Of a DNA stretch of 64,000 nt, positions 12,859 to 50,115 are shown piece by piece. The position numbers and the translations under genes are program-made. Under the pieces are notes generated by a model that saw only the letters and a list, made by a program, of their open reading frames with translations, did no database searches and was not told the DNA's origin. Every line of letters begins with the position of its first letter. Position 1 is the stretch's first letter. Source of the DNA: Bacteriovorax sp. MedPE-SWde (GTDB lineage: Bacteria > Bdellovibrionota > Bacteriovoracia > Bacteriovoracales > Bacteriovoracaceae); NCBI GenBank assembly GCA_001874305.1, contig MPCU01000009.1, positions 1 through 64,000 on the forward strand. Reading direction: 5' to 3'.

Positions 12859-12916
12859 TTCGGGGACGATTAATTATTTGTTTGACGCGATATATTAAAT
12901 AAAAAAGGATAGTGTA

Positions 12917-14200: not shown

Positions 14201-14209
14201 ATTATATTG

Positions 14210-14364: not shown

Positions 14365-14748
14365 ATGAGCTTAAGTGTATTAGTTGTAGATGATGAAAAG
14401 AAACTGACGGACCTTATAACAGAGTCCTTAAAGAGTTTTAATGTCTTTAGTTCAGTAGTTGCCGCTTATGATGGTGCAGATGCCATGAGAAAGCTTACTA
14501 ATCAAACTTTTGATATCGTGATCCTGGACCTAGGGATGCCTAAAAAAGATGGGCTAGATGTTTTAAACTATCTGTCTGAAGAAGATACTTACTCGAGTAA
14601 GGTAATTGTAATCTCTGGTGGCTTTACTGCTGATAATATAGGAGAGGCTAAAAACTATACGAGTCACTTCTTGGCCAAGCCCTTTAAGATTAATGATTTA
14701 AAAGTAAAGATTGGCCAAGTCGTTAAAGAATTAAAGGGTGTCGCTTAA
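14365..14748 (+). CDS. Single-domain response regulator (receiver only)
   Basis: A 127-residue CheY-like receiver with no output domain. VLVVDDEKK gives the acidic pocket, DIVILDLGMPKKDG holds the phospho-acceptor Asp (near residue 52), the Thr/Ser switch is IVISGG, and FLAKPFKIND carries the conserved Lys-Pro. The start is ATG 14365. A GTG at 14353 lies in the ribosome site GTGGGGAGAG and is rejected. No kinase is adjacent, and the next gene is on the other strand and convergent (stops one base apart). The partner is unknown. Confidence 0.9.
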   Translation: MSLSVLVVDDEKKLTDLITESLKSFNVFSSVVAAYDGADAMRKLTNQTFDIVILDLGMPKKDGLDVLNYLSEEDTYSSKVIVISGGFTADNIGEAKNYTSHFLAKPFKINDLKVKIGQVVKELKGVA

Positions 14749-15375: not shown

Positions 15376-15387
15376 TGTACTTCCTTT

Positions 15388-16476: not shown

Positions 16477-16477
16477 A

Positions 16478-17485: not shown

Positions 17486-17503
17486 ATTTATTCCTTAATT
17501 AAA

Positions 17504-18628
17504 TTAAACTCTTCCAAACTTTTTATCGTACTCAGGCAGGACTTCATCCATGGCTTTGTAGAAGTGCCTCATTTCATCTTTTGTACCAATGCTTACTCTG
17601 ACAAAGTCAGGCATTTCATTTGCTTTAAGAGGTCTAATGATTACTCCGTGATTAAGTAATTGATCAAATAGATAATCACTTGCTTCTCGAGAGCCTGTTT
17701 TAAATGTCACAAAGTTAGTGATTGATTTTATAGGCTTGAAGTTTTTTGATTCAAGGTACTCTATTATCTCACCATATCTCTTAGTATTATTTTTAAGAGT
17801 TCTTTCTAGGTGGGGTCTATCTTCTAGTGCACCAACTGATCCTAGTTGTCCGATAAGGTTTGGCTCAAAAGGGAGTTTTACTTTTGTAAGATAAGCGATT
17901 AGTTCTTCATGACCAAACCCATAACCTACGCGAATCCCTGAGAGCCCATAGGCCTTTGAAAATGTTCTAAGAGTTAGAACATTGTCATATCTGTAATCCA
18001 TTGAATCAGGATAATCTTCTTGTTGAACTGCAAATTCAAAATATGCTTCGTCTAATATTACGAGAACATGACTAGGGATATGCTCCATAAGGAAGTCAAA
18101 TTCGTCCTTAGTGATATACGTTCCCGTAGGGTTGTTAGGGTTTGCAATATATACGACTTTAGTTTTATCTGTAATATTTTTCGCTAGCGCCTTTACGTCA
18201 AAACGATAATCCTCTGTAAGAGATACTGTTTTTAATTTTGCTCCAACACTTCTTGCAAGAATATAAAATCCTATAAATGTATTGTCACAAGTTAGGACTT
18301 CATCATTGGGCTGAAGGAATGCTCTTGCAATATAGGCCATGATTCCTTCAGAACCATTTCCTAATATTATATTTTCTAGTTTTAAATTATATATTTCAGC
18401 AAGCTTAGATTTTAAACTGTATGCATGCATGTCAGGGTAGCGATGTAGGTCCCATAGACCTCTTGTCATCTCTCGAATTGCATAGGGAGAAGGACCAAGT
18501 GGGTTTTCATTACTGGCAAGTTTACTAATATTAGTGAGGCCTCTTTCTCGTGCGACTTCATCGATTGGTTTTCCAGCTTGATATACTTTTAGATCTTTTA
18601 AATATGAGGGTGCTAGCTCTTTTTGCAT
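17504..18628 (-). CDS. hisC: HisC-type PLP aminotransferase, probably acting on aromatic amino acids here
   Basis: Class I/II aminotransferase, 374 residues. NPLGPSPYAIREM, YIANPNNPTGTYI and LDEAYFEFA are present, and the PLP lysine is in LRTFSKAYGLSGIRVGYGFG (near residue 230). The sequence is of the histidinol-phosphate aminotransferase family, but no other his gene is nearby. It heads a minus-strand operon with FAA hydrolase, hmgA and a flavin reductase. Transamination of tyrosine or phenylalanine to feed homogentisate is therefore the likelier job (inference). A good promoter precedes it. Confidence 0.88.
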   Translation of the reverse strand: MQKELAPSYLKDLKVYQAGKPIDEVARERGLTNISKLASNENPLGPSPYAIREMTRGLWDLHRYPDMHAYSLKSKLAEIYNLKLENIILGNGSEGIMAYIARAFLQPNDEVLTCDNTFIGFYILARSVGAKLKTVSLTEDYRFDVKALAKNITDKTKVVYIANPNNPTGTYITKDEFDFLMEHIPSHVLVILDEAYFEFAVQQEDYPDSMDYRYDNVLTLRTFSKAYGLSGIRVGYGFGHEELIAYLTKVKLPFEPNLIGQLGSVGALEDRPHLERTLKNNTKRYGEIIEYLESKNFKPIKSITNFVTFKTGSREASDYLFDQLLNHGVIIRPLKANEMPDFVRVSIGTKDEMRHFYKAMDEVLPEYDKKFGRV

Positions 18629-35051: not shown

Positions 35052-38000
35052 TGAGAAGTCCAAACGCTGAACAAGTTAAAGCTATAAAACATAATGGTGG
35101 TGTGTTGTTAAACGCAGGGGCCGGCTCTGGTAAGACATTTGTTTTAATAGAACATATACATTACTTAATTGAAGAGTTTATTCAATCGCGTGAAAATACA
35201 CCTGTTGAAATATTTAAAAAAGATCTAAAAAACTATTTGAATAAAATAGTTCTGATGACTTTTACGAATGATGCCGCTGCCGAAATAAGAGAAAGATTAT
35301 TTAAAAGATTTGAAGATTTAGATGGTGAGAAGTGGGCAGTTGTTCCAGATTGCTTAATGGCAATGAACGTTAGTACAATTCACGGTTTTTGTTTAAAAAT
35401 GATTAAACAAGGACTGATTGAAGGTGCCCCTGGACAAATTGAGATTACTGACGAATTTCAAATCGCGAAGAAAATTGAAATTCTAGTTGAACAGTGGTTT
35501 GAAAGAAGAAATGATTCAGAGATCAACGATTCATTTATTAAAAATTACACTTCAATTGTAAAGGCGATGCAGTTTATTTTCTCTTCTCCTGAATTACGCT
35601 CCGAATGGGCGGCGGGAGTTAGATATTCCGTGTCTAATTTTGATGAGAATAAATTCTGGAATGAGTTATTCGTACTTCTTGAAATAAGTGAATTTTGGAA
35701 TAAGCAGTCAAACTTGGCTGAAGCCGAAGAGTTTAGAGGAAAGCCTTGGTTTAATCTACTTGAAGGACTTAACTCTCTAAAGACTAAAGAAGAGATATCA
35801 TTTTCTGATCTACTGGAAGTCGAACATCTCTTTAAGACAGTGGGAAGACTTGTTGTTTCGAAAAAAGTCTCTTTAAGCTTAAAGGAAGATGTAAATACGG
35901 CGAAGAAAATAAAAGAATTTATGAAGTCTTACGGGGAAGATTTAAAATTCTTTTTTGATTTTAAAGAAACCTTTAAGACTTGGGAAGATAGCTTTAAAGA
36001 TCTATTTAATTTTATAGACTCTCGATACTATGATCTCGCAGGTATAGGATTTGCAGACTTAGAGTATCTTGTTGTTAGAGCTCTCAAGGAGAGTGAAGCT
36101 ACACGAGAACAAGTCCAAAAGAACTTCAGTTACCTTATTGTTGATGAATTTCAAGACACTTCTTGGGTTCAGTATGAAATTATTAAACAAACTATCGGAG
36201 AGAACTTTAGCAACTTATTCTGTGTTGGTGATCGTAAGCAAGCAATTTATGGATTTAGAGGTGGTGAACTAGGCGTTTTTAATGAAACATGTGAGAAAAT
36301 TCCGCAAAATTTAATTATGAGGAATAACTACCGCTCTGAAGAGAAAGTTGTGACATTTAACAATAATTTCTTTGAATATATTTTTGGGTTAGGTAGAGAA
36401 TTTAAAGGAAGTGATAACTTCTCCGTTGAGGTCGATGCTCAAGAGTTTCCAAAAGATGTAAAAGAACAGGCCAAAGGGCATGCTTCTGAGTTTACGATCT
36501 CAATTGAGGATGAAGATATTAAAAGGCCTAGTCCTATTGATATGAATAAATGGGAGTCTCTAGGTATTTTTCAGCGAATTACAGATACTCAAAAGTCTGC
36601 ACCAGAAGAAGAGATATGTATTCTATATAAGAATCTAGGCCCAAGTAAAATGTTAATTGAAAAACTTATTGAGGCCGAAATACCTTTTCAGGCTCAAGTA
36701 AAAGTTCCATTTGTAGAAGATCCATTTATGGCGATCTTCAGTGCATTTGTAGATTTTCTATTAGAAGTCGATCGTGCACCAAGTGAGCAATTACATTGGG
36801 ATAAATGTGTTAAGTATCTTGATTTCTACCTAATGGGAATATCGGAACACTACTATGATAAAAGCCAAAAATTATCAGCAGAATGTCTAAGAGAGCTATA
36901 CTACAAGTATAAACAAAGTGGAATTGAGGTTTCTTTTTGGTCTTTAGTTTTTGAATTAGGATATGCAAATTCATCTTATGAAAATAATGCTAAAAAGATT
37001 TCTGAAATAATAAAGAGTTCATCTGGAAAAATTTCTGAAATATGGAAAGCACTTTCTGCAATCTCTGGAAAAAGCTATAGTACTAAATTTAATTTTATGA
37101 AGTCTCCAAAAGTATATATCATGACAACTCACGCCTCTAAGGGGCTTCAGTATGACAATGTTATAATAGGAGGTGTTCATACTAATGGTCGTAGAGTTGC
37201 GAATACTGAGACTATGGGAATGCTTCCTGGTTCTTTTAGGTGGAGTTCTGACTTATTGAAGAAGAAGCTTCATCGTTCTCCTATGTACATTTATGAAAAT
37301 GTGGTCAAGTCCCATAAAGAATACTCGGAATCGAAGAGACTTTTCTATGTTGCCTGCACTCGAGCAGTTAAGTCGATTGAGTGGATAAATCTCCAGTTAA
37401 ATGGAAAAGAAATCTCATCAAGTAAGGAAAGTTGGATAAATGCTCTTCGAATTTTTGTTGATGACACTTATGAGAAAAAAATCTTGGAGTTAAAAGACGT
37501 TAATTCGCTACCCCCTTCAAAAGCACCAATGTATTTTATGGATGCCCTAGGAGTAAGTGGTAGAAGCGAAAAGATGAAAATTGGTTTAGTTTCAGAACTA
37601 TCAGTAACAAAGTTGTCTTTACTTGCTCTTTGTCCTAAGAAGTTTTATCTCTCACAAATTTTAAAACTTGATGATCAGTGGAAAGAGTTCTCAGAAGAAA
37701 ATGATATCGAACTTCCGGCCCGTATTGGTGTATCTGACGCTCAAAGAGGAACGAGACTTCACTATCAGATTGAGAATACCATTAAAGGTGAGCCTGTTGA
37801 AAATGGTGAAGAAGACATATTGAACTGGGTTAAAACTGAACTTAAAAAGGTATCAGATAAAGAACTTGTTTCAGAAAGAGAGATGAAGTTCTCATTTTTT
37901 GGACAAATGATAACTGGGATACCTGATTTAGTAGTTGAAGAGAACGGTCAGGTAGAAGAAATATGGGATTTTAAATCTGGTCTATGTGATGACGAGGACA

Positions 38001-38245
38001 AGAGGTCTTACCGCTTTCAATTGTTGACCTATGCACTAGGGCTTGATCAAGTTTCAGACAACTTAAAAGATAAGATCTCTCTAAAGATACTTCTCTTGGA
38101 TAAGAAAGAGATCGTTACATATGAAATTAACAAAAGCCATATAAGAGAAGAGCTATATAGAACTTGGTCAAAGTTATCAAGTATTCAAGTCGAGAAAATT
38201 CCTCATTGCGCTTCCTGCATGTATGGAAATTTATGCCACCAATAG
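35051..38245 (+). CDS. addA: AddA-like UvrD-family helicase-nuclease
   Basis: Motor subunit of the double-strand-end processing complex, 1064 residues. All superfamily 1 motifs are visible: Walker A NAGAGSGKT near residue 22, DEFQDT near 365, VGDRKQAIYGFRGG near 391, TTHASKGLQYDNV near 693 and YVACTRA near 766. A C-terminal PD-(D/E)XK domain has GIPDLVVEENGQVEEIWDFK near 956. It is flanked by ALCPKKFYL (near 860) and CASCMYGNLC (near 1055), so this subunit also seems to carry a 4-Cys Fe-S staple, which AddA of Bacillus lacks. It is coupled to the addB-like gene by a one-base overlap. Confidence 0.9.
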   Translation: MRSPNAEQVKAIKHNGGVLLNAGAGSGKTFVLIEHIHYLIEEFIQSRENTPVEIFKKDLKNYLNKIVLMTFTNDAAAEIRERLFKRFEDLDGEKWAVVPDCLMAMNVSTIHGFCLKMIKQGLIEGAPGQIEITDEFQIAKKIEILVEQWFERRNDSEINDSFIKNYTSIVKAMQFIFSSPELRSEWAAGVRYSVSNFDENKFWNELFVLLEISEFWNKQSNLAEAEEFRGKPWFNLLEGLNSLKTKEEISFSDLLEVEHLFKTVGRLVVSKKVSLSLKEDVNTAKKIKEFMKSYGEDLKFFFDFKETFKTWEDSFKDLFNFIDSRYYDLAGIGFADLEYLVVRALKESEATREQVQKNFSYLIVDEFQDTSWVQYEIIKQTIGENFSNLFCVGDRKQAIYGFRGGELGVFNETCEKIPQNLIMRNNYRSEEKVVTFNNNFFEYIFGLGREFKGSDNFSVEVDAQEFPKDVKEQAKGHASEFTISIEDEDIKRPSPIDMNKWESLGIFQRITDTQKSAPEEEICILYKNLGPSKMLIEKLIEAEIPFQAQVKVPFVEDPFMAIFSAFVDFLLEVDRAPSEQLHWDKCVKYLDFYLMGISEHYYDKSQKLSAECLRELYYKYKQSGIEVSFWSLVFELGYANSSYENNAKKISEIIKSSSGKISEIWKALSAISGKSYSTKFNFMKSPKVYIMTTHASKGLQYDNVIIGGVHTNGRRVANTETMGMLPGSFRWSSDLLKKKLHRSPMYIYENVVKSHKEYSESKRLFYVACTRAVKSIEWINLQLNGKEISSSKESWINALRIFVDDTYEKKILELKDVNSLPPSKAPMYFMDALGVSGRSEKMKIGLVSELSVTKLSLLALCPKKFYLSQILKLDDQWKEFSEENDIELPARIGVSDAQRGTRLHYQIENTIKGEPVENGEEDILNWVKTELKKVSDKELVSEREMKFSFFGQMITGIPDLVVEENGQVEEIWDFKSGLCDDEDKRSYRFQLLTYALGLDQVSDNLKDKISLKILLLDKKEIVTYEINKSHIREELYRTWSKLSSIQVEKIPHCASCMYGNLCHQ

Positions 38246-38320: not shown

Positions 38321-39028
38321 ATGATTAGGAAGATCAAAGTTCTCACTCTGTTATTTTTAACAACTATTGTAAACGCAGCAGAAGGCGACCTTTACAATTT
38401 TTCGTGGTTGGACAAAGACAAAGAAGTATACGTCTTACAAAATAGAAAATTTAGAAAGAAAGGTAAGTTACATGTGGCCGGTGGTTACGGTAAAACTATA
38501 TCAGGATCATTTGTAGACTCAATGGCAATGCAAGTTAGAGGTGGATACTTCTTTAGTGAAGCATTTGGTTTTGAAATGGTTTACTCAATGAACAGTGGTG
38601 AAGAGAATGAAGCAGCTGCTTCTGTTCGAGATGCTGGATCTGGATCCGGAACAATTCCTTTTAGACGTATCGTAGATAGCTATTACGGTGGAATGCTTAT
38701 GTGGTCTCCGTTCTATAGTAAAATAAATACATTCAATAAAATTATCTATTTAGATTTTATATTTGGTCTAGGTCTTGCTCAGATTGAAGAGACTAACAAT
38801 AGAGAACAGTTTGTTAACTTTAATCCTAATGCTGCAGAAACGACTGAGACACATACTGGTATTATGTGGAACGCTGCTATTAAGTTTTACTTAACTGAAA
38901 TGTGGAATGTCCGTTTTGATGTAAATGCAATTCATTATCAAGCAAAAAGAGCTCGTCAAGATGTTAATGCTGAAGACTATTGGTATAACAATTTCGATAT
39001 GACACTGGCCTTGGGAATCGACTTTTAG
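38321..39028 (+). CDS. Outer-membrane beta-barrel protein of the Glt-like cluster
   Basis: A 235-residue protein with the signal peptide MIRKIKVLTLLFLTTIVNA. The mature part has barrel strands (KLHVAGGYGKTISGSFVDSM, VRGGYFFSEAFGFEMVYSM, IYLDFIFGLGLAQIE, MTLALGIDF) and ends in Phe, as expected for outer-membrane insertion. It resembles the small outer-membrane beta-barrel family found beside gliding genes in Myxococcota. It opens a tightly packed operon running to 48360. The ribosome site is AGGCAGGAAG. Confidence 0.75.
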   Translation: MIRKIKVLTLLFLTTIVNAAEGDLYNFSWLDKDKEVYVLQNRKFRKKGKLHVAGGYGKTISGSFVDSMAMQVRGGYFFSEAFGFEMVYSMNSGEENEAAASVRDAGSGSGTIPFRRIVDSYYGGMLMWSPFYSKINTFNKIIYLDFIFGLGLAQIEETNNREQFVNFNPNAAETTETHTGIMWNAAIKFYLTEMWNVRFDVNAIHYQAKRARQDVNAEDYWYNNFDMTLALGIDF

Positions 39029-39038
39029 GAGTAGTTAA

Positions 39039-40448
39039 ATGAAAAAGAAGATATTATTTTTGATCCTTCTTTCATTTAGCTCATTTGCTATTGAAAGTAT
39101 TTGGAAAGATTTAACGAGAAAGAATAATCGAATAAGAAATTATCCAATTATTATTAAGAAATTAATAGATAAGAAAATGTATCATACATCTGTGCCCTAT
39201 CTTAAGGAGTACCTTGTTTCTAGTAAGAGGTTTAATAGGTCTCTCTTTGATAAATTACTTGAAGAGGTTGTAGAGCATGTAGGGGATAGACAATTTGTTC
39301 TTCTTCCTGAGAAATACTTGAAACGTTCAAAAGCTCCAACCCTAAGGTATATTTTAGCAAAAAAAGTACTTAGAAGAGGTAAGCTAGCCGAAACTTTAAA
39401 GATACTTAATGCTTCTATTCCTGTTGATCACTCTGTTAAGCCATTTGCTTTAATGCTTGAAGGAACAGTTTTCTCTTATAAGAAAAGCTATTTAAGTTCA
39501 GTTAGTAGTTTTAAGAGATGTATTTCTGTTTCTGAAGACCAGTTGTCTGATGCAACAACAATACAGAGAAAAAGACAACTTCTAATAAACAAAGACTACT
39601 GTCTTGCAGGTATAGCGAGAAGTTTATACGCATCTCGAAACTATGAGAAGGCTGAGCTTAGCTACCTCGATATTGATAAGAAGTCATATATTTGGCCGGA
39701 ACTTTTAGTAGAAGAAGCCTGGAATAGTTTCTATAAAGGTGACTACAATAGAACACTCGGAAAACTTGTTACTTATAATGCACCAGTGATGAAGTATATC
39801 TTTAATCCTGAAATAGATGTTCTTCAGGCAATGTCGTATTTAAAAATGTGCCTCTATGATGATTCAGTTAAAGTTGTTGAAAATTATTATAGAAAATATC
39901 AGAAATCTACTTCTCTTCTCTCAAAGCTCATTAATAAGAAAAATGATGATTTAAATTATTTCTTCTTACTTATTAATAGCTATAAGAATGGAAAGAAATA
40001 TTCAGTGAAGTTAGTTAATGATCTTCTTGCTTCAATTTTAAGGGACCCAGCATTCTTAAATCTTTATGAAAGCTACACTAATGGGAAGAAAGAAATATCA
40101 AAAATTAAAGGTGTTCGAAATAGACGACTAAGAAGAATTTTAGCTGTTAACTTAAAAGATTCTCTAAGCTTACAGAAAAAGCTTATTGGTTCATATGTAA
40201 AAAGAACTTTAAAGGTCTCACGTGCTCAACTACAGAAAGGTTTTTCTGGAATGAGTTATATAAAGCTAGAAGTTCTATCTAGAAAGAAGGAGCAGCTTTA
40301 TTCTGATTCAACAGAGATTAAAGGGCGTGGTGATATAAAGTACCTTAAGAGTAATGAAAAACAGTATTTTTGGAACTTTAATGGAGAATTCTGGGCGGAT
40401 GAGCTAGGAGACTATGTCTTTGCTTTAAAGTCGGAGTGTAGCAAATGA
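39039..40448 (+). CDS. Exported TPR-like protein of the Glt-like cluster
   Basis: A 469-residue protein with signal peptide MKKKILFLILLSFSSFA. The remainder is helical, lysine/tyrosine-rich and repeat-like (ALMLEGTVFSYKKSYLSSVS, GIARSLYASRNYEKAELSY, EEAWNSFYKGDYNRTLGKL, i.e. TPR-type helix pairs). Probably periplasmic. The partner is unknown but presumably the other products of this operon. It is 10 bases after the barrel gene and overlaps the next by the ATGA shared start/stop. Confidence 0.65.
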   Translation: MKKKILFLILLSFSSFAIESIWKDLTRKNNRIRNYPIIIKKLIDKKMYHTSVPYLKEYLVSSKRFNRSLFDKLLEEVVEHVGDRQFVLLPEKYLKRSKAPTLRYILAKKVLRRGKLAETLKILNASIPVDHSVKPFALMLEGTVFSYKKSYLSSVSSFKRCISVSEDQLSDATTIQRKRQLLINKDYCLAGIARSLYASRNYEKAELSYLDIDKKSYIWPELLVEEAWNSFYKGDYNRTLGKLVTYNAPVMKYIFNPEIDVLQAMSYLKMCLYDDSVKVVENYYRKYQKSTSLLSKLINKKNDDLNYFFLLINSYKNGKKYSVKLVNDLLASILRDPAFLNLYESYTNGKKEISKIKGVRNRRLRRILAVNLKDSLSLQKKLIGSYVKRTLKVSRAQLQKGFSGMSYIKLEVLSRKKEQLYSDSTEIKGRGDIKYLKSNEKQYFWNFNGEFWADELGDYVFALKSECSK

Positions 40449-43285
40449 AAATAATTTTTAAGTTTCTTCTTTTAGCATGCTTGATAAGTAGTAGTTCTTA
40501 CTCGGCATTAACAGGTAAAAGAAAACGTATAGTAAGTGTTATTGATATGGAGCTTAAAGAGCTATCACGCTTATCAAAAGTTTCTGGAAATAAAGACCCT
40601 GAAATGCTTTTAAGAATTGCTGAGTTATATCTAGAGAAAGGACGAATTCTTAGAGAGCAAGAGAATGAAGATTTTTTTAAGCTCCCAATAAAGACTAGAC
40701 AGAAAATCAATAGGAAGAAGTTTTACGCAAATTCTAAGGCTCATATTCAAAGAGCACAGAAAACAGGTGTTTTTATACTAAACCGTTTTAAAAGATTTAA
40801 AGGTAAGAGTGATGTTTATTATATCTTAGCTTTTAATGAAAAAGAAAATGTGAACTATAAGGCCGCTAAACAATTATTTGTAAAAGCAATAAAATCATCT
40901 CGAAGAAAATCTGATTCAGCATCTGTTAAGTCACGACTTGCCTTAGGAGATATTTACTATAGTGAAGGGAACTTTAAGCAAGCAAGAGTCAACTATCGAT
41001 CTGTAATCTCTAAGATAAAAGATGATAAATGGTATACAAAATATTTATACAACTTATCTTGGTGTAACTTTAGACTTGGTAAAAAGAAGACTGCATTGTC
41101 TCAAATGAAAAAAGTCTATAAGTTAAGTAAATCACCAAAGTATATGGATAAGGCGAAGAGTTCACAAAGAGACTTGGGCTATTTCTATGCAGATAAAGGT
41201 AGTGTTAAGCAAGCTAAAGCTTTTTATAAAAAAGTTGGTGGTGATGTTGCAAAGAATTTTTACGATATGGGAATGTTTCTAAAAGATAAGCAGAAGTATT
41301 CAAAGTCTTTGAACATGTTTAAAAGTGCGTATAACTCTGGAGATAATCGCTATAAAGTCAGAGCTTTAGTCGAGACACTAAATATTTACGATAAGTACAA
41401 TAATAATAAACGATTCATAATTTACGCGCGAAAGGCACAAAAAGTTTCGCTTAATAAAGAAGATAAGAAAGAAATCCTATTCTATATTTCAAAAAGAGCT
41501 GCTTTGTTACAAAAAGAATTAAACTTGTCTCATAATAAGAATAGGCCTGGAATTCTAAAGTCTAAAGGGACTATTGCAGCTGAGCTGTACATCATTGCAA
41601 AAAATCTTGATCCTTCTCTAAGTGAGAAGTCGCTCTTCTTTGCCGCGGAATCGTTTTATTCATCAAGACAGCTTGATGCCTCACTGAAGTATTACAATGA
41701 AGTTAAAAAAATTGGTAATACGAAGTCTAAGTATTATAAACGATCAGTAGTTGGAGTCCTTACAGCATTAAATGCTAAGGGAATAAGTAAGAAGTCACGT
41801 TTACTTTATTTTGAAGAAGCATATATTCACTACATAAAAATAGAACCGAATAGAGAGAAGAAGGGACGTGCAGTTGAAAAACTATTTTCTTTCTACATTG
41901 ATGAGAAGAAGCAGCCACATAAAGCTGAAGGTATCTTTTTTCAGTACTCTAGAATTTATCCAAAGAAAAATAGAAAGAACGAAGCAATGATTGGTCGAAT
42001 CGTTGACTTGTATAAGAAAAAGAAAATGAAAACAAATCTTTTTTCATTTGTACGCAAGCTTAAGAGTACCAATGTCGTACTGACTAGGAAGTTTGTCAAA
42101 AGATTAAATAAGATTGTTTTAACGACACAGTTTGAGTCTGTGCAAAAGGCAAATAGTAAAGGCGATAAGGTATTTGCTTTAAAAGGCTATTTAAGTATTT
42201 ATTCTGATAATGAAAGTACACCAAGTGCAAAAAGGAATGCCGCGTATAATATCTCTGTTCTCTTTTATGAACTTGGAAACATGGACATGATGTATAAGTG
42301 GATGTCACGATCAATTAATGACATGAAGGTTGGAGAAGTTAAGAGTTTTTCTAAATCGTTATCATCTATGGTTAATGAGCTTTATCTAAGAAATAGGTTT
42401 AAAGAAGGAAATACACAGTCCGAACTACTTTTAAATAAGCTGTGTAAGGTGAAGTCTACGTCGAAAAAAGAAATCTTATCTAACTATGTTGTTATGTCAC
42501 TTAGTGATGGATTGGATGCTAAGACTAAATCCTTTGTTCAAAGTCAAAAGCGTTGTAAGTATGGTAGAAATATTTTTTCATCTGTATCTGAAACACTTCT
42601 AGAGTACTACCTAGATTACTCTCTACTGGATAAGGCCGAGCGCGAATACCATGAATTTAGTTCTCAATCTAAGAATAAGGTTTTACGAATTAAATACTTA
42701 GGGACATTGATTAGTAAAAAGAGAATAAGAGGAGCAACGGTCTCAAAGCAGTATAAAAGAAATCTAATTAATCTCTATAGAGCAATATCTAATAAAGGAA
42801 AAATCTCAAGAGTTGCATTAGATGAGTATGCATATATTAGAATATCTGGATTAAAGTCTAAGATAAAGTCTTTCAATTCTCTTAAATTAAGATTTCCCGA
42901 AAAGAAATATAACAAAACTTTAAAGAGAAAGTTTAAAAAGCTTGATGGAATAACGAGAGAAGGTATTGAAATTTTGAAAATTGGTTCTAAGAAGGCCATG
43001 GTCGATGTTTATAATGAGCTAATTTCATCTTATGAAAACTTTTCTAAGGAAGTTGCTGGATTTAAGCCTCCAGGAAAAAGTGCTGATTATATAAAGTCTT
43101 TTCAAAAGGGAATGGGGAGTATCTCAAGGCCCCTTTCGCAAAAAGTTACTCAATTTAAAAGAGAACTAACTGCTCAAGTTAATAAGTATGAAGTTCTATC
43201 TAGTACATATGGAAATACATCTCGAAAGGGAATTCCATATGCACCTATCCATGAATATATCTTAATGGATAAGAGGGGAATGTAG
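40445..43285 (+). CDS. Large exported TPR protein (GltD-like)
   Basis: A 946-residue protein with a signal peptide (MKIIFKFLLLACLISSSSYS). Many TPR-like repeats follow from ~50 to ~700 (for example VYYILAFNEKENVNYKAAKQ, SRLALGDIYYSEGNFKQARV, YNLSWCNFRLGKKKTALSQM, AAESFYSSRQLDASLKYYNE). Size, export and position before a TPR lipoprotein match the large periplasmic TPR protein GltD of the Myxococcus gliding complex. The assignment rests on layout, not on a sequence search. Confidence 0.65.
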   Translation: MKIIFKFLLLACLISSSSYSALTGKRKRIVSVIDMELKELSRLSKVSGNKDPEMLLRIAELYLEKGRILREQENEDFFKLPIKTRQKINRKKFYANSKAHIQRAQKTGVFILNRFKRFKGKSDVYYILAFNEKENVNYKAAKQLFVKAIKSSRRKSDSASVKSRLALGDIYYSEGNFKQARVNYRSVISKIKDDKWYTKYLYNLSWCNFRLGKKKTALSQMKKVYKLSKSPKYMDKAKSSQRDLGYFYADKGSVKQAKAFYKKVGGDVAKNFYDMGMFLKDKQKYSKSLNMFKSAYNSGDNRYKVRALVETLNIYDKYNNNKRFIIYARKAQKVSLNKEDKKEILFYISKRAALLQKELNLSHNKNRPGILKSKGTIAAELYIIAKNLDPSLSEKSLFFAAESFYSSRQLDASLKYYNEVKKIGNTKSKYYKRSVVGVLTALNAKGISKKSRLLYFEEAYIHYIKIEPNREKKGRAVEKLFSFYIDEKKQPHKAEGIFFQYSRIYPKKNRKNEAMIGRIVDLYKKKKMKTNLFSFVRKLKSTNVVLTRKFVKRLNKIVLTTQFESVQKANSKGDKVFALKGYLSIYSDNESTPSAKRNAAYNISVLFYELGNMDMMYKWMSRSINDMKVGEVKSFSKSLSSMVNELYLRNRFKEGNTQSELLLNKLCKVKSTSKKEILSNYVVMSLSDGLDAKTKSFVQSQKRCKYGRNIFSSVSETLLEYYLDYSLLDKAEREYHEFSSQSKNKVLRIKYLGTLISKKRIRGATVSKQYKRNLINLYRAISNKGKISRVALDEYAYIRISGLKSKIKSFNSLKLRFPEKKYNKTLKRKFKKLDGITREGIEILKIGSKKAMVDVYNELISSYENFSKEVAGFKPPGKSADYIKSFQKGMGSISRPLSQKVTQFKRELTAQVNKYEVLSSTYGNTSRKGIPYAPIHEYILMDKRGM

Positions 43286-44178
43286 TGAAAATATTATTAT
43301 CAGTTAGTGTTCTTCTTTTTCTTCTAAGTTGTGGAGGTTCACAAAAAGCTCAAGAACCTTCAAAGAGCTCATTACCTGCTGAACTTGAAGATCTAAGTAA
43401 TGAAGACTTTAAGCCTAAGAGGCAAGTTCGTTATAATGCCAAGGCCGATTATCATATTATTGATGATCTAGTACAGGATGCTTTAAAAGACGAATCATTA
43501 GCTAAGATTGATCACGGGGACATTAAGAAGATAGATAAGAAAATTTCTGGAATCTCTGGGTTATGTTATCTTGGACATTCAAAAGAGGGTCTACAGAAAC
43601 TAGATACTATCTATCCTAAATATAAGTCAAACCCATCCTATTGGAATCAAATGGGAAGTTGTTATTTAGAACTTGGAAAAATTAGAAAAGCTAAGATCTT
43701 CTACAACAAAGCTCTATCATTAAATAATAAGTATACGCCTGCAATTAATAATCTTGGTGTCGTATATCTCAGAGAAGGGAAACCTGAAAAGTCGTTGGCA
43801 GCTTTTAAGCAAGTTGTAAAACTAAGAAGGAACTCCAAGACTGCGAAGTACAATATGAGTTCTTTGTTTCTCAAATTTGGACTTTTTAATAAAGCTGAAA
43901 AGCTTCTGAATGAGGTTTATAAGTCAGGAGGGAAGGATAAGGATGTGATGTTGGCGCTTGCGTATAGTCAACTATATCGTGGTAATGGACAAGCTGCAAT
44001 TAGATACCTTTCTAAAATCCCATCAGAAATTCTAAGGACGAAAGATTTTTCATTAGCACTATTTTATGCATACAAAATAACAAAGAACAAAAAAAGTACA
44101 AAAATATCTGATTTCCTCGAGGGACAAGATTTAAGCAAGAAGCAAAGAATAGCATTTAATAGAATGAGGCAATTATGA
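43285..44178 (+). CDS. TPR lipoprotein (GltE-like)
   Basis: A 297-residue protein with a lipoprotein signal MKILLSVSVLLFLLSC (lipid Cys near residue 16). Tandem TPRs are well formed at ~112-210: YWNQMGSCYLELGKIRKAKI, AINNLGVVYLREGKPEKSLA, AKYNMSSLFLKFGLFNKAEK. The start is GTG 43285, sharing one base with the stop of the large TPR gene, and the end overlaps the next gene by ATGA. A TPR lipoprotein next to a large TPR protein matches the GltD/GltE arrangement. Confidence 0.75.
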   Translation: MKILLSVSVLLFLLSCGGSQKAQEPSKSSLPAELEDLSNEDFKPKRQVRYNAKADYHIIDDLVQDALKDESLAKIDHGDIKKIDKKISGISGLCYLGHSKEGLQKLDTIYPKYKSNPSYWNQMGSCYLELGKIRKAKIFYNKALSLNNKYTPAINNLGVVYLREGKPEKSLAAFKQVVKLRRNSKTAKYNMSSLFLKFGLFNKAEKLLNEVYKSGGKDKDVMLALAYSQLYRGNGQAAIRYLSKIPSEILRTKDFSLALFYAYKITKNKKSTKISDFLEGQDLSKKQRIAFNRMRQL

Positions 44179-44429
44179 AAAATATTATTATGATCGTAGC
44201 GGTTTCTTTAATTGGATTAAGCTCATTAGCTCAAAAGAAAGAACGAATCATTTATAAGTATAAGAAGTTCGAAGAAATAAATCTTGGTGAAATTAAGGTT
44301 GATGGAGAACTTGGTAGCCCTGGTGAAATTTCTATTTCACAACGTTATTTAAAGAAATTTAAAAATAAATTACCTCATAAACCAAACTTTAATCTTGAGA
44401 TGATGAAAGGTTTGGAAAGAATAAGATAG
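44175..44429 (+). CDS. Small exported protein of the Glt-like cluster
   Basis: An 84-residue protein with signal peptide MKNIIMIVAVSLIGLSSLA. The mature part is about 65 basic residues (KKERIIYKYKKFEEINLGEI, then a short VDGELGSPGEISI turn). I recognise no family. It is held between the TPR lipoprotein (4-base overlap) and the FHA/AgmX gene (9-base gap), so co-expression and co-function are likely. It could be a counterpart of the small periplasmic GltF, but this is only by position. Confidence 0.65.
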   Translation: MKNIIMIVAVSLIGLSSLAQKKERIIYKYKKFEEINLGEIKVDGELGSPGEISISQRYLKKFKNKLPHKPNFNLEMMKGLERIR

Positions 44430-44438
44430 GAGAAGACT

Positions 44439-46331
44439 GTGGATCAAGGAAGATCACTTCAGTTAGAAAGTTCTGAAAAAAATTATAGTGTACCAATGAA
44501 GAAGAGGATTATTGTTGGATCTAGTGATTCTGCCGATCTACAAATTCGTGGGCGTACTGTATCTGATATTCACTGTTTGATAGAAGTGCAGGGGGATAAA
44601 TACAAGATTTTTAGTCTCTCTCCTCAATCAAAAGTAATTGTAAATGGTTCTGAGGTTGTAGCGCAAGAGCTGAAATTAAATGATGTGGTAAAACTTGGTG
44701 AATCTGAATTTAAGTTCACAAAGAGTAGTCTCAGTCTTCCTAAAACTCCTATTGAGAAAAGAAAGAAGCTACCGAAGCCTTTACCTGTTAAGCCAGAGAT
44801 AAGTCAGGATGAAGTCGTCTATGATGAAAACTATCCATTAAGTAAGGATAGTGATGCTCAATTTAGTGAGTATATTTTTGAAGATTCGGAAGAGATTTAT
44901 CCAATATTTAAATATGAAGTGGAAAAAAGAGCGGCCGAGGTAATTATCTTATTTAAGGATAAGATTTTATCGATTGATTATATTCCACAAAAAGACGGTA
45001 TTTATAAACTTGCTGGTGTAACAAATAATTTAAAAGATATTGAATTTGCCTATCTTGGTAAAGAAGAAAAGATTCCATTTATAGAAATACGAAATGGTGA
45101 GATATTTGTTAGTGGTGTTCCTGGTTTTGAGCATAAGAGCTTTTCGGACTCTAGTAAAACAGGTGACTCAATACTTCTAGAGAAGGATGATATACATCTC
45201 TTTGATAAAGAGGAATTAAAAATATTTGTTAAAGGGGATGAAGCTCCTCCACATGTAAAATCAGCACCAGTGTTAAGAAGAGATAATGAATTTAAAAAGT
45301 ACTTAATACTCTGTTTCTTATTTGTTGCAGGTTTTCTCTCTGCTGTTAGCTTTTATGAAGTGGATCCTGAACTTGAAAAAGAAAAGGTTCCAGAGAGAAT
45401 AGCGACAATTCTATATAAGCCAAAACAGTTACGTGTAACTAAAAAGAATGATCCAGTTAAAGATATTAAAAAGAAGATAAAGAAGAGAAGAAAAGCTCCT
45501 GTAAAAAAGAGTGTCTCAACGGTAAAAAAAGCAATAAAACAAACTAAGAGTAAGGGAACATTAAAAGCTAAGTCTAAAAGTGTGGCAAAGAAAGGAAGTC
45601 CAAGAAAAGGGCCGACTAATAATAAGAAAATTGTGAGAACTGCAAAAAAGAAAGCTGGTAAGCCAGGTAAGACAAGTCGTAAAAAAGTAACAGTTAAACG
45701 TGTCTCACCAAACAAAAAGTTTAAGGGACGTGTTGATACGTATAAGTCAGAAGACTTTACTTCATCAATTAGTAGCTTAATGGCCAAGGGTGGAGCACTT
45801 AGTGCTGTTAAATCAAAAGCAGGTCTAACGGAAAGTTATGAAGATAAAGCTTCTTCATTCTCCTCTAGTGACTCAGCGCAAGTGAAACGTGCAAATGTTC
45901 AGGCCAAGGTTGGTTCACTTTCAAGTCAAACGAAAGGTAAGTTAGCCGATAGCTTTGGAACAGATGGTTTAGTACAAAAGAAACAAGTATATATTGCAGG
46001 TGTTCCTTATAAAGAAGTTATTCTTGGATCTATCGACAGAAATGACATTATGCGTATTTTATTAGAGAATGTTCCTCAGTTTAGATACTGTTATCAGAAG
46101 GAGCTTGATGTAAGACAGGCCGGCTTAGATGGCGTTTTACCTATGAACTTTGTAATTGGGCCTTCTGGGCACGTTACTAGAGCTAGGGTAACATCAACTT
46201 CTAAGAACTTACCAGCATCTGTTAATGGTTGTATTGTAAGTCACTTAAAGACGATTCAATTTCCTAGACCAAAGGGTGGATCTCAAGTTAGTGTAAATAC
46301 AGCTTTAAACTTACACTCAAAATCTCTTTAG
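44439..46331 (+). CDS. FHA-TM-AgmX/PglI protein (GltG-like envelope-spanning protein)
   Basis: A 630-residue protein with four parts. A cytoplasmic FHA domain (residues ~15-95, RIIVGSSDSADLQIRGRTVS then DIHC) binds phospho-Thr. A linker follows, then one membrane segment (YLILCFLFVAGFLSAVSFY, ~287-305) and a very Lys/Arg-rich periplasmic stretch (~320-440). The C-terminal TonB-like AgmX/PglI domain (~535-628) contains NVPQFRYCYQKELD, GVLPMNFVIGPSGHV and ISSLMAK-type linkers before it. This order is that of GltG of the Myxococcus gliding machine, thought to reach through the periplasm from motor to outer membrane. The start is GTG 44439 with AGGAGAAG. Confidence 0.82.
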   Translation: MDQGRSLQLESSEKNYSVPMKKRIIVGSSDSADLQIRGRTVSDIHCLIEVQGDKYKIFSLSPQSKVIVNGSEVVAQELKLNDVVKLGESEFKFTKSSLSLPKTPIEKRKKLPKPLPVKPEISQDEVVYDENYPLSKDSDAQFSEYIFEDSEEIYPIFKYEVEKRAAEVIILFKDKILSIDYIPQKDGIYKLAGVTNNLKDIEFAYLGKEEKIPFIEIRNGEIFVSGVPGFEHKSFSDSSKTGDSILLEKDDIHLFDKEELKIFVKGDEAPPHVKSAPVLRRDNEFKKYLILCFLFVAGFLSAVSFYEVDPELEKEKVPERIATILYKPKQLRVTKKNDPVKDIKKKIKKRRKAPVKKSVSTVKKAIKQTKSKGTLKAKSKSVAKKGSPRKGPTNNKKIVRTAKKKAGKPGKTSRKKVTVKRVSPNKKFKGRVDTYKSEDFTSSISSLMAKGGALSAVKSKAGLTESYEDKASSFSSSDSAQVKRANVQAKVGSLSSQTKGKLADSFGTDGLVQKKQVYIAGVPYKEVILGSIDRNDIMRILLENVPQFRYCYQKELDVRQAGLDGVLPMNFVIGPSGHVTRARVTSTSKNLPASVNGCIVSHLKTIQFPRPKGGSQVSVNTALNLHSKSL

Positions 46332-46339
46332 GAGCATGA

Positions 46340-47104
46340 ATGAAGAAAATACTTATAAGTCTAATTTTATTATCTAGTACCGCTGCTTTTGGCTCCCTTG
46401 AAAAAGGACTCGTCATTGCTAAGAAAATGGAAGCTGCTAATAATGGTTATGTCGGAGAGACATCTACTATGAGACTTGTTCTTATTGACTCTTCTGGAAA
46501 GCAGATAGAGCGTGAGATGGAAGGGAATACTTCGGAACTAAAGAATGTTGATAAAACGATTATGAAGTTTCAAAAACCTGCAGATGTAAAAGGTACGAAG
46601 CTTCTTACTTGGGCACACAAGAATAAAGATGATGACCAATGGTTATATCTTCCATCACTAAGAAGAGTGAAGAGAATTAATTCAAGAAGTAGAGGAAGCT
46701 CTTTTATGGGAAGTGAGTTCTCATATGAAGATCTTGGAAGTCAGTCTATAGACAAGTATACATTCAACTTAAAAGGAACTAAGAAGGTTGATAGTATGGA
46801 TACATGGGTACTTGAAAGAGTTTCAAAGAATAAGAGTTCTTATAGTAAAGTTATTATGTATGTATCTAAAAAATACTTAGCTGCTGTGAAGAGCGAGTAC
46901 TACAATAAGCGTAAAGAGTTATTAAAGGTCGCAATCTTTAGTGAGTTTAAGAAGTATACAGTTAAGAAGAAGTCGTTCTATAGATCTAATAAGATCTTTA
47001 TGACAAATATTCAAAATAAAAAGAAGTCTATATTTACATGGGAGAATCGTAAGATTGGTATGAAGCTTTCCTCTCGTAAGTTTAACAAGAACTCTCTAAA
47101 GTAA
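46340..47104 (+). CDS. LolA-like outer membrane lipoprotein-sorting protein family
   Basis: A 254-residue protein with signal peptide MKKILISLILLSSTAAFG. The family core is clear: KGTKLLTWAHKNKDDDQWLY then LPSLRRVKRINSRSRGSSFMGSEFSYEDL (split here only for length). Members of this LolA-like group often sit next to RND/MMPL exporters, but none is present here. It follows the FHA/AgmX gene by 8 bases and shares its last base with the next gene, so it belongs to the same operon. Confidence 0.82.
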   Translation: MKKILISLILLSSTAAFGSLEKGLVIAKKMEAANNGYVGETSTMRLVLIDSSGKQIEREMEGNTSELKNVDKTIMKFQKPADVKGTKLLTWAHKNKDDDQWLYLPSLRRVKRINSRSRGSSFMGSEFSYEDLGSQSIDKYTFNLKGTKKVDSMDTWVLERVSKNKSSYSKVIMYVSKKYLAAVKSEYYNKRKELLKVAIFSEFKKYTVKKKSFYRSNKIFMTNIQNKKKSIFTWENRKIGMKLSSRKFNKNSLK

Positions 47105-48360
47105 TGAAAATATTAAGTATATTAATTTGTTCTCTCCTTATTTCAAATGTGTTTGCAGATGGAAGAGGGGAGATTTCTTTTTCATATCATCGCTACACAA
47201 AGAAACAAACCAATCAAATTAATGATTTGATGTTTTCTAGCTTTGAGGTTGAAGATAGTGGTGAACTATGGGGTGGCGAGTTTAAACTTGGTATCGTTGG
47301 AAAAGCGAATAGTAAGGATAGGGAAAATAGTTACCTCAATGTCAACGACCTCTATTACTCATTTACGGGACCATTTCTTTCTCGTATTGATGTCGGTTAT
47401 AAAATTTATAATTGGAGTAAGATGGAAGCATTTCATCCTACGGATGTTATAAATGCACGACTTTTAGATAGTGATATTGAAAACTTTGATAAGAAAGGTG
47501 AGTTCTCAATTGTCTTTGATAATGAGATGGAGTTTGGAAATCTAAAAATATATGCTTTTCCATTTTATGAGGAAAGTTTCTTTCCTTCGGCAGACTCAAG
47601 AATAAGTGATGGCGTTAAGCCGTCTAGAGTAAAGCGTGTTACTAAAGATGGTATATCTGATAGTCAGACGACTTGGCAGTATGGAATTAGTCTTGAAAAA
47701 CAGATTGGTGAACTAGACTTCTTACTTTTTGGACTTAAGCATATCGATAGAAATAGACCAATCGTTGGTTATAATAGTTTTACTAGTGTTCCTCTTGTTG
47801 GAAATATTCCAACAGGCGAACTTGCTGCATTTTATTTCGATGTTCTTGATTTAGGTCTTGCGAGTACTTACTTCTTAGAAGATCATGCGTTTAAGATGGA
47901 AGTTTTAAATAGCTCATTTGATATTGAAGAAGGGCAGGTGTTCTTAACAGGTTCTGGACTTCGAAAAGTCGTAGACTACACAACTGTGTCGATTGGCCAT
48001 GAATACCCATACACTTGGAATAACGGGTGGGACTCGACTTTCTTTACTGAATATCAAACAGTTCTTGGTGTCGACTCTGAAACTGCTCAGGAGCTTAGCC
48101 TCTTTCAAAACGATCTCTTTGTAGGACATAGAATTGCCTTGAATGACGCTTTTTCAAAAGAATTTGTCATAGGATTCTTTTATGACTTGCAAAGAAAGAA
48201 TGAGTGGTTGATTAATATTGGCTACGACCAAAGATTAAATGATTTTTGGAAGTTCCATGTTGGTTATAGGGGATTTAATCACGGAGAGGATGATAAGCTA
48301 GGTGTTTATCTTTTAGAAGGTGATGACGAAGTAAGTTTTAAATTATCTAGATTCTTCTAA
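47104..48360 (+). CDS. Outer-membrane beta-barrel protein ending the Glt-like operon
   Basis: A 418-residue protein with signal peptide MKILSILICSLLISNVFA. The mature protein is strand-rich with aromatic girdles (GEISFSYHRYTK, NVNDLYYSFTGPFLSRIDVG, YKIYNWSKMEAFHPTDVIN, VGYRGFNHGEDDKLG) and ends in RFF, a strong barrel-insertion signal. FHPTDVINAR is typical of proteins paired with the LolA-like family. A candidate for the outer-membrane partner of the machine (GltA/B/H-like role, inferred). A terminator follows. Confidence 0.72.
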   Translation: MKILSILICSLLISNVFADGRGEISFSYHRYTKKQTNQINDLMFSSFEVEDSGELWGGEFKLGIVGKANSKDRENSYLNVNDLYYSFTGPFLSRIDVGYKIYNWSKMEAFHPTDVINARLLDSDIENFDKKGEFSIVFDNEMEFGNLKIYAFPFYEESFFPSADSRISDGVKPSRVKRVTKDGISDSQTTWQYGISLEKQIGELDFLLFGLKHIDRNRPIVGYNSFTSVPLVGNIPTGELAAFYFDVLDLGLASTYFLEDHAFKMEVLNSSFDIEEGQVFLTGSGLRKVVDYTTVSIGHEYPYTWNNGWDSTFFTEYQTVLGVDSETAQELSLFQNDLFVGHRIALNDAFSKEFVIGFFYDLQRKNEWLINIGYDQRLNDFWKFHVGYRGFNHGEDDKLGVYLLEGDDEVSFKLSRFF

Positions 48361-48365
48361 TAAAA

Positions 48366-48396
48366 AAAGGAAGCATTATCGCTTCCTTACTTTTTT
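48366..48396. terminator. Bidirectional terminator between the Glt-like and Agl-like operons
   Basis: AAGGAAGC (48367-48374) and GCTTCCTT (48381-48388), loop ATTATC, with A-run before and T-rich tail after. It serves the converging units. Confidence 0.85.
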
Positions 48397-48402
48397 ACTC
48401 TT

Positions 48403-48912
48403 TTACTCTTGTGCCATTACAACAAATTTATACTTTTGATAGCCTGCCTCAGCACAAGTGTGCATTAGCTTTTTAACGTATTTGTATTTTAAGCTCTTAT
48501 CAATAACAAGATTAACCATCCCAGAAAATTTTTCAGCGTTAGGAGTTGTTTTAGCAATTCTCTTAATCTGATTCTTCTTTGTCATTAGCTCGTTATATAG
48601 CGGAAGTATTAATCTTCCTCGTTGACCATAAATACGTCCAGACTTCTTCTCTGTATTTAGAACCTCTTTATCATCAACCCAGATAATATTTGGAGAGACT
48701 TGAACAACAACCCCATTCTTATTCAGTGATTGAGAGGCCGAGTGAGGAAGCTTAATATCTTTTGGAATATTTAAGATTACACCTGTCGAGTCATAGCTTC
48801 TTAATAGGAATACTAATAGGATTACAAGAATATCTAGTAGGGAAGTGATATCGAGATCGATAACGCCCTTCTTTCTTCTTTGTCCTCTATGTCTGATTGA
48901 TCTTTTTCTCAT
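48403..48912 (-). CDS. TolR/ExbD-type motor subunit (AglS/AglQ-like), second copy
   Basis: A 169-residue protein with a basic cytoplasmic start, a single membrane helix ITSLLDILVILLVFLL (residues ~23-38) and a periplasmic domain. The helix has the proton-path Asp found in TolR, ExbD and MotB relatives. It is last in a TolQ-TolR-TolR set on the minus strand. Two different TolR-type subunits behind one TolQ type is the aglR-aglQ-aglS pattern of the Myxococcus gliding motor. Ribosome site AAGG. Confidence 0.82.
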   Translation of the reverse strand: MRKRSIRHRGQRRKKGVIDLDITSLLDILVILLVFLLRSYDSTGVILNIPKDIKLPHSASQSLNKNGVVVQVSPNIIWVDDKEVLNTEKKSGRIYGQRGRLILPLYNELMTKKNQIKRIAKTTPNAEKFSGMVNLVIDKSLKYKYVKKLMHTCAEAGYQKYKFVVMAQE

Positions 48913-48921
48913 TATTTAACC

Positions 48922-49452
48922 TTAGCCTTGCGTATCACCAAAGATGATATTATTAAAAAGCTTCGTGATTTTAATATCACCGCCAGATTTGTCCTTAGTC
49001 CAAATCTCTGGGTCTGTGTCTTTAAGATCTCTTACAGTATCCATTACGCTAATCAGTGTCTCATAAGAAATATTAGCGATAGGCATGAAGATGATCGTTT
49101 CTTCAGATTTATATTTCTTCTTTAGAGAGATTAGTTTTTCTCTCAACTTGTAAAGTTCATATTTACCATTTTCATCTTTACCTACTTTGTAGATTCTTCT
49201 TTCATTGTTACCAGTGTGTAGGGTAAGCCTTGAAGAATAAATCTTTAATGTTAGGTTAAGCTGTTTCTTTTGCTTCTTAGGCGGTTGTCTATTAGAGATA
49301 ATAGGAACATCACTATTAATCTCATATATTTTGACGAAGTTAGATGACATAAGAAGGAAGAAAATAAATATGAAAACCGAGTCTAATATAGGAATTAGAT
49401 TCGGCTTTTCAACAATCTTACTTTTATATTTTCTACTTGGTTTTCTATACAT
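48922..49452 (-). CDS. TolR/ExbD-type motor subunit (AglQ/AglS-like), first copy
   Basis: A 176-residue protein. The one membrane helix PILDSVFIFIFFLLMSSN (residues ~21-38) carries the conserved Asp near 24. The periplasmic part (~45-176) is basic and unlike the second copy in sequence. It is 12 bases after the TolQ-type gene and 9 bases before the second TolR type. It probably forms a proton-driven stator with the TolQ-type protein. Confidence 0.82.
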   Translation of the reverse strand: MYRKPSRKYKSKIVEKPNLIPILDSVFIFIFFLLMSSNFVKIYEINSDVPIISNRQPPKKQKKQLNLTLKIYSSRLTLHTGNNERRIYKVGKDENGKYELYKLREKLISLKKKYKSEETIIFMPIANISYETLISVMDTVRDLKDTDPEIWTKDKSGGDIKITKLFNNIIFGDTQG

Positions 49453-49464
49453 GATAGCTAGCTC

Positions 49465-50115
49465 TTATTTTTCTTGCTTAGTAGTTAGTAGATCCATTAG
49501 CTTTACTGAGAATTCATCAATCTCATTAATGATCTTTTCCGATTTGCTACTTAGGAATGCATGAAGCATCATGATTGTAATTGCAACGAGAAGACCTAAG
49601 AAAGTTGTATTCATGGCCTTTGAAATACCCGTCGCAAGCAATTCAGCTTTTTGAGTTGGATCTGCAGCAGCAACTGCTGAGAATGATTGTATTAGACCTT
49701 GGATCGTTCCAAGAAGACCAAAAAGAGTTGAGATGTTAGCAATAAGTTGTAGGTAGTTAAGTCTTAGCTCAACTTTTGGAATAACTTCTAGTGCTGTAGC
49801 ATCAATTGCATTTTGAATATTATCTGGTTGAGCACTTGCTCTTTTTAAACCACTCTTCAATACTTTTGGAAGTGCAGCTACTGAACCAGAACATACTCTG
49901 ATGGCACCTTGAATATCATTTGATAAAATGTATCTTTGTAGCTCATTCATAAATGAAGAACCATCCACATCCATTTTAAAGCTTAGCTTTAGAAATCTTT
50001 CTATCGCTATAGCAATACCTACTGCCCATATAAAAAGAATGATCCACATGAAAATACCACCACTTTGAAAGAAAGAGGCGATCGTATTCATCATTGTTAC
50101 ACTTGTACCTTCCAT
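49465..50115 (-). CDS. MotA/TolQ/ExbB proton-channel protein (AglR-like)
   Basis: A 216-residue inner-membrane protein with three helices (~16-36, ~120-145, ~170-192). The family core is LNYLQLIANISTLFGLLGTI then QGLIQSF, and MNTTFLGLLVAITIMMLHAF. It heads the three-gene motor unit with a strong site (AAGGAG) before ATG 50115. With the two TolR-type proteins it should form the stator that powers the FHA/AgmX machine encoded convergently. Confidence 0.88.
   Translation of the reverse strand: MEGTSVTMMNTIASFFQSGGIFMWIILFIWAVGIAIAIERFLKLSFKMDVDGSSFMNELQRYILSNDIQGAIRVCSGSVAALPKVLKSGLKRASAQPDNIQNAIDATALEVIPKVELRLNYLQLIANISTLFGLLGTIQGLIQSFSAVAAADPTQKAELLATGISKAMNTTFLGLLVAITIMMLHAFLSSKSEKIINEIDEFSVKLMDLLTTKQEK

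Follow-up and report, generated by a model that had tools for sequence, protein, structure and literature searches.

The Agl-Glt kind of machine, known from Myxococcus xanthus, was described in Luciano 2011, which reported four such sets in Bdellovibrio (PMC3169522). The Bdellovibrio sets are without GltH, GltI, GltJ and GltK, and the Bd0828-0838 cluster is the best candidate for gliding (PMC3169522). M. xanthus has two complete Agl-type motor sets, AglRQS and MXAN_3003-5. M. xanthus can move and sporulate without the latter, and two-hybrid tests of MXAN_3003 against GltG and NfsG were negative (PMC3858216; PMC3169522). The Nfs machine of M. xanthus relies on AglRQS and not on MXAN_3003-5 (PMC3858216). 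Here we analyze a locus of this kind in Bacteriovorax sp. MedPE-SWde. It lies in the window, by which we mean the whole stretch of 64,000 nucleotides that was analyzed (positions 1 to 64,000 of contig MPCU01000009.1, assembly GCA_001874305.1; GC content 35%); the genome has 3.76 Mb in 15 contigs.

Based on our results, it is probable that positions 38321-50115 encode a Glt-type trans-envelope force machine that belongs to a Bacteriovorax-like family of Bdellovibrionota, and that a LolA-like gene and a barrel gene in the same operon are most likely passengers. The general kind of machine was already known. To this we add the class of the motor (which Figure 7B of Luciano 2011 may already show), the identity of GltF, and the relocated LolA-barrel pair. 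In a limited search of open-licence literature, which included parts of PMC3983030, PMC4511183 and PMC9140294, we found no description of the machine in Bacteriovorax or Halobacteriovorax, and MXAN_3003-5 came up only in the two papers on M. xanthus cited above.

The motor groups with MXAN_3003-5

Three genes on the minus strand encode, in order, ExbB (a TolQ type in the AglR position, 216 amino acids; 49465-50115; PF01618, 2.7e-26), ExbD_a (a TolR type in the AglQ position; 48922-49452; PF02472, 1.2e-13) and ExbD_b (a TolR type in the AglS position; 48403-48912; PF02472, 1.8e-15). An earlier note on this DNA, made from the letters alone, had proposed just these types, with an aspartate in the helix of each TolR type, and the family matches and alignments agree. 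The transmembrane aspartate is present in 26 of 26 rows for ExbD_a and in 26 of 27 for ExbD_b, the remaining row being cut at the end of its locus, and it occurs together with threonine in the transmembrane helices of the TolQ type. The roles of these Asp and Thr residues in a proton motor are those known from TolQR and ExbBD, and their conservation fits an active motor.

The window and its relatives were compared with Myxococcus sp. CA023 (G115) and with Hyalangium versicolor (G116). One of the two motor sets of Myxococcus sp. CA023 (L231) has subunits of 245, 162 and 194 amino acids, the AglS length being counted from the second methionine. These are the lengths of AglR, AglQ and AglS in Table 1 of Luciano 2011 (PMC3169522), and we therefore took the other set (L230; 260, 173 and 193 amino acids) to be like MXAN_3003-5.

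In a tree of the three subunits (25 rows), the window motor, with 16 others from its family, groups with the MXAN_3003-5-like sets (L230/L237) with support of 100/100, and AglRQS joins the clusters of the Bdellovibrionaceae type, also at 100/100. Approximately unbiased (AU) tests on the same 25 rows rejected trees constrained to unite the family with AglRQS (p-AU 0.00057) or with the Bdellovibrionaceae-type motors (p-AU 0.0012). With 27 rows the split is still supported at 100/100, and kinship of the family with AglRQS has a p-AU of 3.4e-5. The single subunits tend the same way. An ExbB tree with TolQ-type outgroups places the family with L230/L237 (95/96) inside an Agl-type clade (94/94) that excludes the genome's two further ExbB-type proteins. 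Each ExbD tree alone joins the family to L230/L237 at 99, and for ExbD_b alone the AU test of AglRQS kinship gives 0.025. Lastly, 29 alignment columns cleanly separate the two motor classes, whereas the two alternative groupings have 13 and 11 such columns. Before counts or trees were made, we removed open reading frames shorter than 50-60% of the reference, the truncated ExbD_b of L070, and MotA proteins.

Several observations speak against this placement. ExbD_a alone does not reject kinship with AglRQS (p-AU 0.086), the family is on average nearly as similar to one Myxococcaceae motor set as to the other (mean identity 28.9% and 27.7%), MXAN_3003-5 sits on a long branch, and L230 is presumed to be MXAN_3003-5-like by exclusion. 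Weighing the trees together, we conclude from the sequences that the window motor groups with MXAN_3003-5, not with AglRQS. The suggestion in the earlier note that this predator uses the same device as Myxococcus is thus not supported by the motor trees and by the tree of Glt parts (below): the motor is on the MXAN_3003-5 side, and the Glt parts fall outside Glt plus Nfs. In M. xanthus, MXAN_3003-5 is not known to perform any particular task, and it lies apart from the glt genes; in the window family, motors of the same class accompany a full Glt core.

Window-class motors also occur elsewhere. Some relatives have a second Glt cluster, which forms a single operon and brings its own window-class motor (L045 of G007, 5922-16989; L054 of G053; L083; L084). 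The one in L045 is adjoined by a lipoprotein of the VWA/MIDAS type (NF052240, 1.9e-21; CglD, 2.1e-9). In the 27-row tree, the motor of the second, Bdellovibrionaceae-type cluster of G110 (L282, 5674-9155) is also on the window's side, but on a long branch. Beside it are a weak match of the VWA type and a PilZ-GYF protein, and a link to cyclic di-GMP is possible.

A Glt core in two convergent operons

The plus-strand operon, which converges on the motor operon, encodes in order a barrel, GltC, GltD, GltE, an 84-amino acid protein, GltG, the LolA-like protein and a second barrel of 418 amino acids. The first protein is an outer-membrane barrel of the GltA/B type (235 amino acids; 38321-39028; TIGR04565, 2.8e-28, 99 bits with a cut-off of 60). 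It is followed by a GltC homologue with a signal-like N-terminus (469 amino acids; 39039-40448; NF033756, 1.5e-32, 113 bits with an equivalog cut-off of 450) and by a large GltD-like tetratricopeptide repeat (TPR) protein (946 amino acids; 40445-43285), assigned by Pfam TPR families, position and a family profile. The GltE-like protein (297 amino acids; 43285-44178) matches TPR families and, below cut-off, NF033758 (2.6e-7); its sequence has the lipobox LLSC. Next come the 84-amino acid protein, also with a signal-like N-terminus (44175-44429), and a GltG homologue (630 amino acids; 44439-46331) that has an FHA domain (PF00498, 2.8e-8), a transmembrane helix at residues 285-309 by hydropathy, a lysine-rich spacer and an AgmX/PglI tail (NF033768, 63 bits with a cut-off of 40). 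It also matches NF033760 (9.8e-23, below cut-off).

Much of this had been anticipated. The TPR lipoprotein, in the GltE position, and the FHA-transmembrane-AgmX/PglI protein with its lysine-rich spacer are as the earlier note described them. Its large TPR proteins come down to the GltD-like one, GltC having no TPR match in Pfam, and of its two outer-membrane barrels only the first is of a Glt type; the other (47104-48360) pairs with the LolA-like gene. The HMM search that it had proposed was positive in part: GltC, GltE and GltG matched NCBIfam glt models, but none of the window proteins passed a Glt equivalog cut-off, which counts against the assignments.

Profiles built from the window cluster and its relatives link these proteins to their counterparts in the loci of Myxococcus sp. 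CA023 and H. versicolor. The GltC profile finds GltC of Myxococcus (144 bits) and of Hyalangium (150 bits), and the GltG profile gives 177 and 192 bits in the two sets of loci. With the GltD profile, Hyalangium GltD scores 60 bits and proteins in the NfsD position score 124 and 122 bits, and the GltE profile finds Hyalangium GltE (39 bits). The barrel profile finds both GltA/B-type barrels that adjoin Myxococcus GltC (25 and 45 bits), and the motor profiles recover two complete three-gene motors. The Hyalangium order GltD-E-F-G is that of the window. In Hyalangium there is also an extra GltG (L239, G116:C101; 857 bits, above the equivalog cut-off), near which other glt genes were not found.

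The 84-amino acid protein had been set aside as a nonstandard part, and this can be ruled out. NF033764 (CglF) is matched by 10 of 16 aligned homologues of the protein (best 6.4e-12), although the window's own sequence by itself matched no glt model. The profile of this small family finds the protein next to GltG in Myxococcus and Hyalangium (36 and 42 bits), and the Myxococcus protein beside GltG scores 143 bits to CglF. Because of these matches and the shared D-E-F-G order, we assign the protein by sequence to GltF/CglF. In Luciano 2011, GltF has a length of 89 amino acids, and Bdellovibrio is among the bacteria that have it (PMC3169522).

Homologues of all members of the Group B core of Luciano 2011 are thus found in one region (GltC, GltD, GltE, GltG, AglR, AglQ and AglS), together with two Group A parts, one TIGR04565 barrel and GltF/CglF. 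By homology and gene order, the set is of the type known from Myxococcus Agl-Glt, as the earlier note had it. It is not "complete" as claimed there: gltH, gltI, gltJ and gltK were not found in the cluster, the genome-wide search having covered the AgmX/PglI tail but not GltH, GltI or GltK. In the whole genome, that tail has one match above cut-off, which is GltG, and GltC has one match. In-frame stops flagged in some GltC matches were read as the normal ends of those genes, lying at the edge of the match, judging from L052 alone.

All 11 open reading frames are present, and within each operon they are separated by 8-12 bp or overlap by 1-4 bp. Together the operons span 11.8 kb, between addB-addA (32715-38245) on one side and gmhA-trx-polA on the other (gmhA, trx and polA named from sequence and an SIS match). 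Between their ends lies a terminator-like stem (48367-48388, both strands), which is weak by itself since the region has 9 such sites versus 6.5 expected. The arrangement in two convergent operons is as the earlier note described it. The cluster recurs through the family with its two operons kept together, addB-addA in most cases preceding it and trx or polA following, and this conserved synteny rules out chance. One relative (L026 of G018, 12325-14500) has an outer-membrane protein and GltC to GltF, with no GltG or motor matched before gmhA; this is perhaps a decayed set.

A quick tree of GltC, GltD and GltG (43 rows; the standalone second GltG-like copies of L072, L073 and L286 omitted) unites Glt, Nfs and a third, G4-like set of Myxococcaceae in a clade supported at 99, with Glt and Nfs as sisters. 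The window's family falls outside this clade.

What the machine may do

By homology to the Myxococcus system, we infer how such a machine might transmit force, what load it might carry at the surface, and what its output might be (gliding, prey attachment or movement of a surface polymer). Proton flow through ExbB, ExbD_a and ExbD_b would drive GltG in the inner membrane. The lysine-rich spacer and AgmX/PglI tail of GltG would pass the force to the periplasmic GltD, GltE, GltC and GltF, and these would hand it to the GltA/B-type barrel in the outer membrane and to a surface adhesin or polymer attached there.

The machine may or may not make Bacteriovorax glide, its motor being on another branch than that of the Myxococcus gliding machine. 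It is possible, though we would hold this only tentatively, that this is the organism's gliding machine, functionally equivalent to Myxococcus Agl-Glt, and that the motor class is merely a difference between lineages. AglRQS-type and GltA/B-, C-, D-, E-, F- and G-type parts are all present, which Luciano 2011 suggested as the mark of a potential glider (PMC3169522). The genome also has an mglA gene with a roadblock-like gene directly upstream; it was found with the MglA protein of a relative, the PF00025 probe having found only a 927-amino acid (IF2-sized) frame in this genome. With its single GltC match, the window cluster is the only Glt set found in the genome, and gliding, if there is any, would therefore need this machine. 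However, the motor is on the side of one that M. xanthus can spare for gliding, GltH, GltI, GltJ and GltK are absent from the cluster, and the cluster type that is the best gliding candidate in Bdellovibrio is on the other motor branch. In addition, MglA of Bdellovibrio controls prey invasion rather than gliding (PMC3983030), and our limited literature search found no report of gliding in the genus. A Glt cluster in a predatory bacterium is not always proof of gliding. The presence of one Glt set also means that the significance of the motor class can be tested with a single deletion.

A use like that of Nfs, in which the machine would move or compact surface polysaccharide or another envelope polymer and not the cell, seems unlikely. 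Orthology, as far as these sequences go, would favor neither this use nor gliding, because the family is outside the sisters Glt and Nfs and equally close to both. In Myxococcus GltG, an Arg comes after the first Gly of the FHA domain; the window GltG has no such Arg, and neither has NfsG. This Arg has a role in phosphothreonine binding, and its absence makes such binding by the window protein doubtful. Against an Nfs-like use, we saw no genes for polysaccharides within the cluster or flanking it, and the motor that Nfs uses in M. xanthus is of the other class.

The LolA-barrel pair and comparison with known systems

At the 3' end of the plus-strand operon lie the LolA-like gene (46340-47104, 254 amino acids; PF17131, 5.4e-53; 3bk5_A, 2.5e-44) and the gene for the 418-amino acid, outer-membrane barrel-like protein (47104-48360). 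The LolA-like gene had been called nonstandard, and it is; the barrel gene comes with it as a pair. The 418-amino acid protein has no Pfam or NCBIfam match, and it is a putative barrel by sequence pattern; an AlphaFold model from the single sequence was uninformative (predicted local distance difference test score 31).

The location of orthologous pairs in sister genera suggests where this one came from. Without its 6 glt-linked members, the LolA-tree clade of 26 leaves 20 sister-genera loci. The barrel adjoins LolA in 19 of these (the exception is L266), and a nucleotidase gene, which we take to be of the HAD type, adjoins 12 (L044, L046-L049, L051, L267, L270, L273, L275-L277). All glt-linked LolA genes fall in a single clade (99), which is nested among the HAD-linked ones (Shimodaira-Hasegawa-like approximate likelihood ratio support 86-91); the barrel tree does not resolve the direction of the move. 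The nucleotidase gene is still present in all six genomes of the window's genus, and in the three of three genomes read at this site (L252, L253, L254) its other neighbors are kept and the LolA-barrel pair is gone. The simplest reading is one relocation, from beside the nucleotidase gene to the 3' end of the glt operon. We suspect that this separate export pair is most likely a relocated, co-transcribed passenger, or perhaps a recruited module.

It is improbable that the two proteins are working parts of the machine, for example a lipid or lipoprotein export pair, perhaps energized by the Glt motor. The pair is in the same operon, with an 8-bp gap after gltG, a 1-bp overlap between the two genes and a stem-loop only after the barrel gene. 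LolA directly follows gltG in six of six genomes of the genus (the window and L018-L022), a retention that a mere passenger would not need and that counts against our preferred reading, and the glt-linked genes are a single clade. There is also no MMPL gene after the pair here, versus one following it in 8 of the 20 sister loci (L046-L049, L270, L274, L280, L281; by Pfam for L046). However, unrelated neighbors in the region, addAB and trx, are kept as firmly as LolA, so this linkage is weak evidence of function. None of the 11 glt loci of other genera with a readable downstream side of gltG has the pair (L023, L024, L025, L027-L031, L033, L034, L053), and on this count the idea that it belongs to the Glt machine throughout the family is rejected. 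The convergent gap also takes up other foreign genes, as L023 (G007, 15720-18308) carries a FeoB-like gene, named from sequence, and a gene for a 174-amino acid membrane protein between gltG and the motor.

Since an MMPL gene is missing after 12 of the 20 orthologous loci, as it is downstream of the window pair, it may not be defining for LolA-barrel operons. MMPL paralogues occur elsewhere in the genome (36-39% identity). Elsewhere, too, the genome encodes an RND(MMPL)-LolA fusion of 1044 amino acids, followed by a barrel-like protein of 395 amino acids and preceded by a TetR-type gene (L038, G000:C3, 6664-11798). A literature search on LolA-like/MMPL operons yielded nothing useful.

Very unlikely, in our view, is the broadest reading, in which motors of the MXAN_3003-5 type define another, equally old class of Glt machine beside the known one, present here with a full transducer as the only set, and in which the genus took over into it a LolA-barrel export pair that in sister genera is often accompanied by an MMPL pump. 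If this is true, a TolQR-type motor would help to supply the outer membrane with lipid or lipoprotein, perhaps for an adhesive surface used in moving or gripping prey.

Compared with the sister-genera operons of LolA-like, barrel and MMPL genes, the window has an orthologous pair, but in a glt operon. The likeness to the M. xanthus Nfs spore-coat machine is in the Glt-type core and the FHA domain without Arg, whereas Nfs is the sister of Glt and is driven by AglRQS (PMC3858216). With M. xanthus Agl-Glt, the window shares homologues of GltA/B (one), GltC, GltD, GltE, GltF and GltG, the order D-E-F-G and a TolQ/TolR/TolR motor. It differs in the branch of that motor, in having one GltA/B-type barrel where M. 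xanthus has two, and in lacking GltH to GltK in a cluster that has the LolA-barrel pair in its operon.

The clusters of the Bdellovibrio Bd0828-0838 type (L071, L072 and kin, so named by gene content and not by locus tags) have the same Glt core in one cluster, likewise without GltH to GltK. In contrast to the window, they have two barrels, motor genes in line with the glt genes, and a motor that joins AglRQS (100/100). The MXAN_3003-5 motor (M2; L230/L237) is of the same class as the window's (100/100). In Myxococcus and Hyalangium this type of motor follows topA with no glt genes near, whereas the window motor faces a full Glt core.

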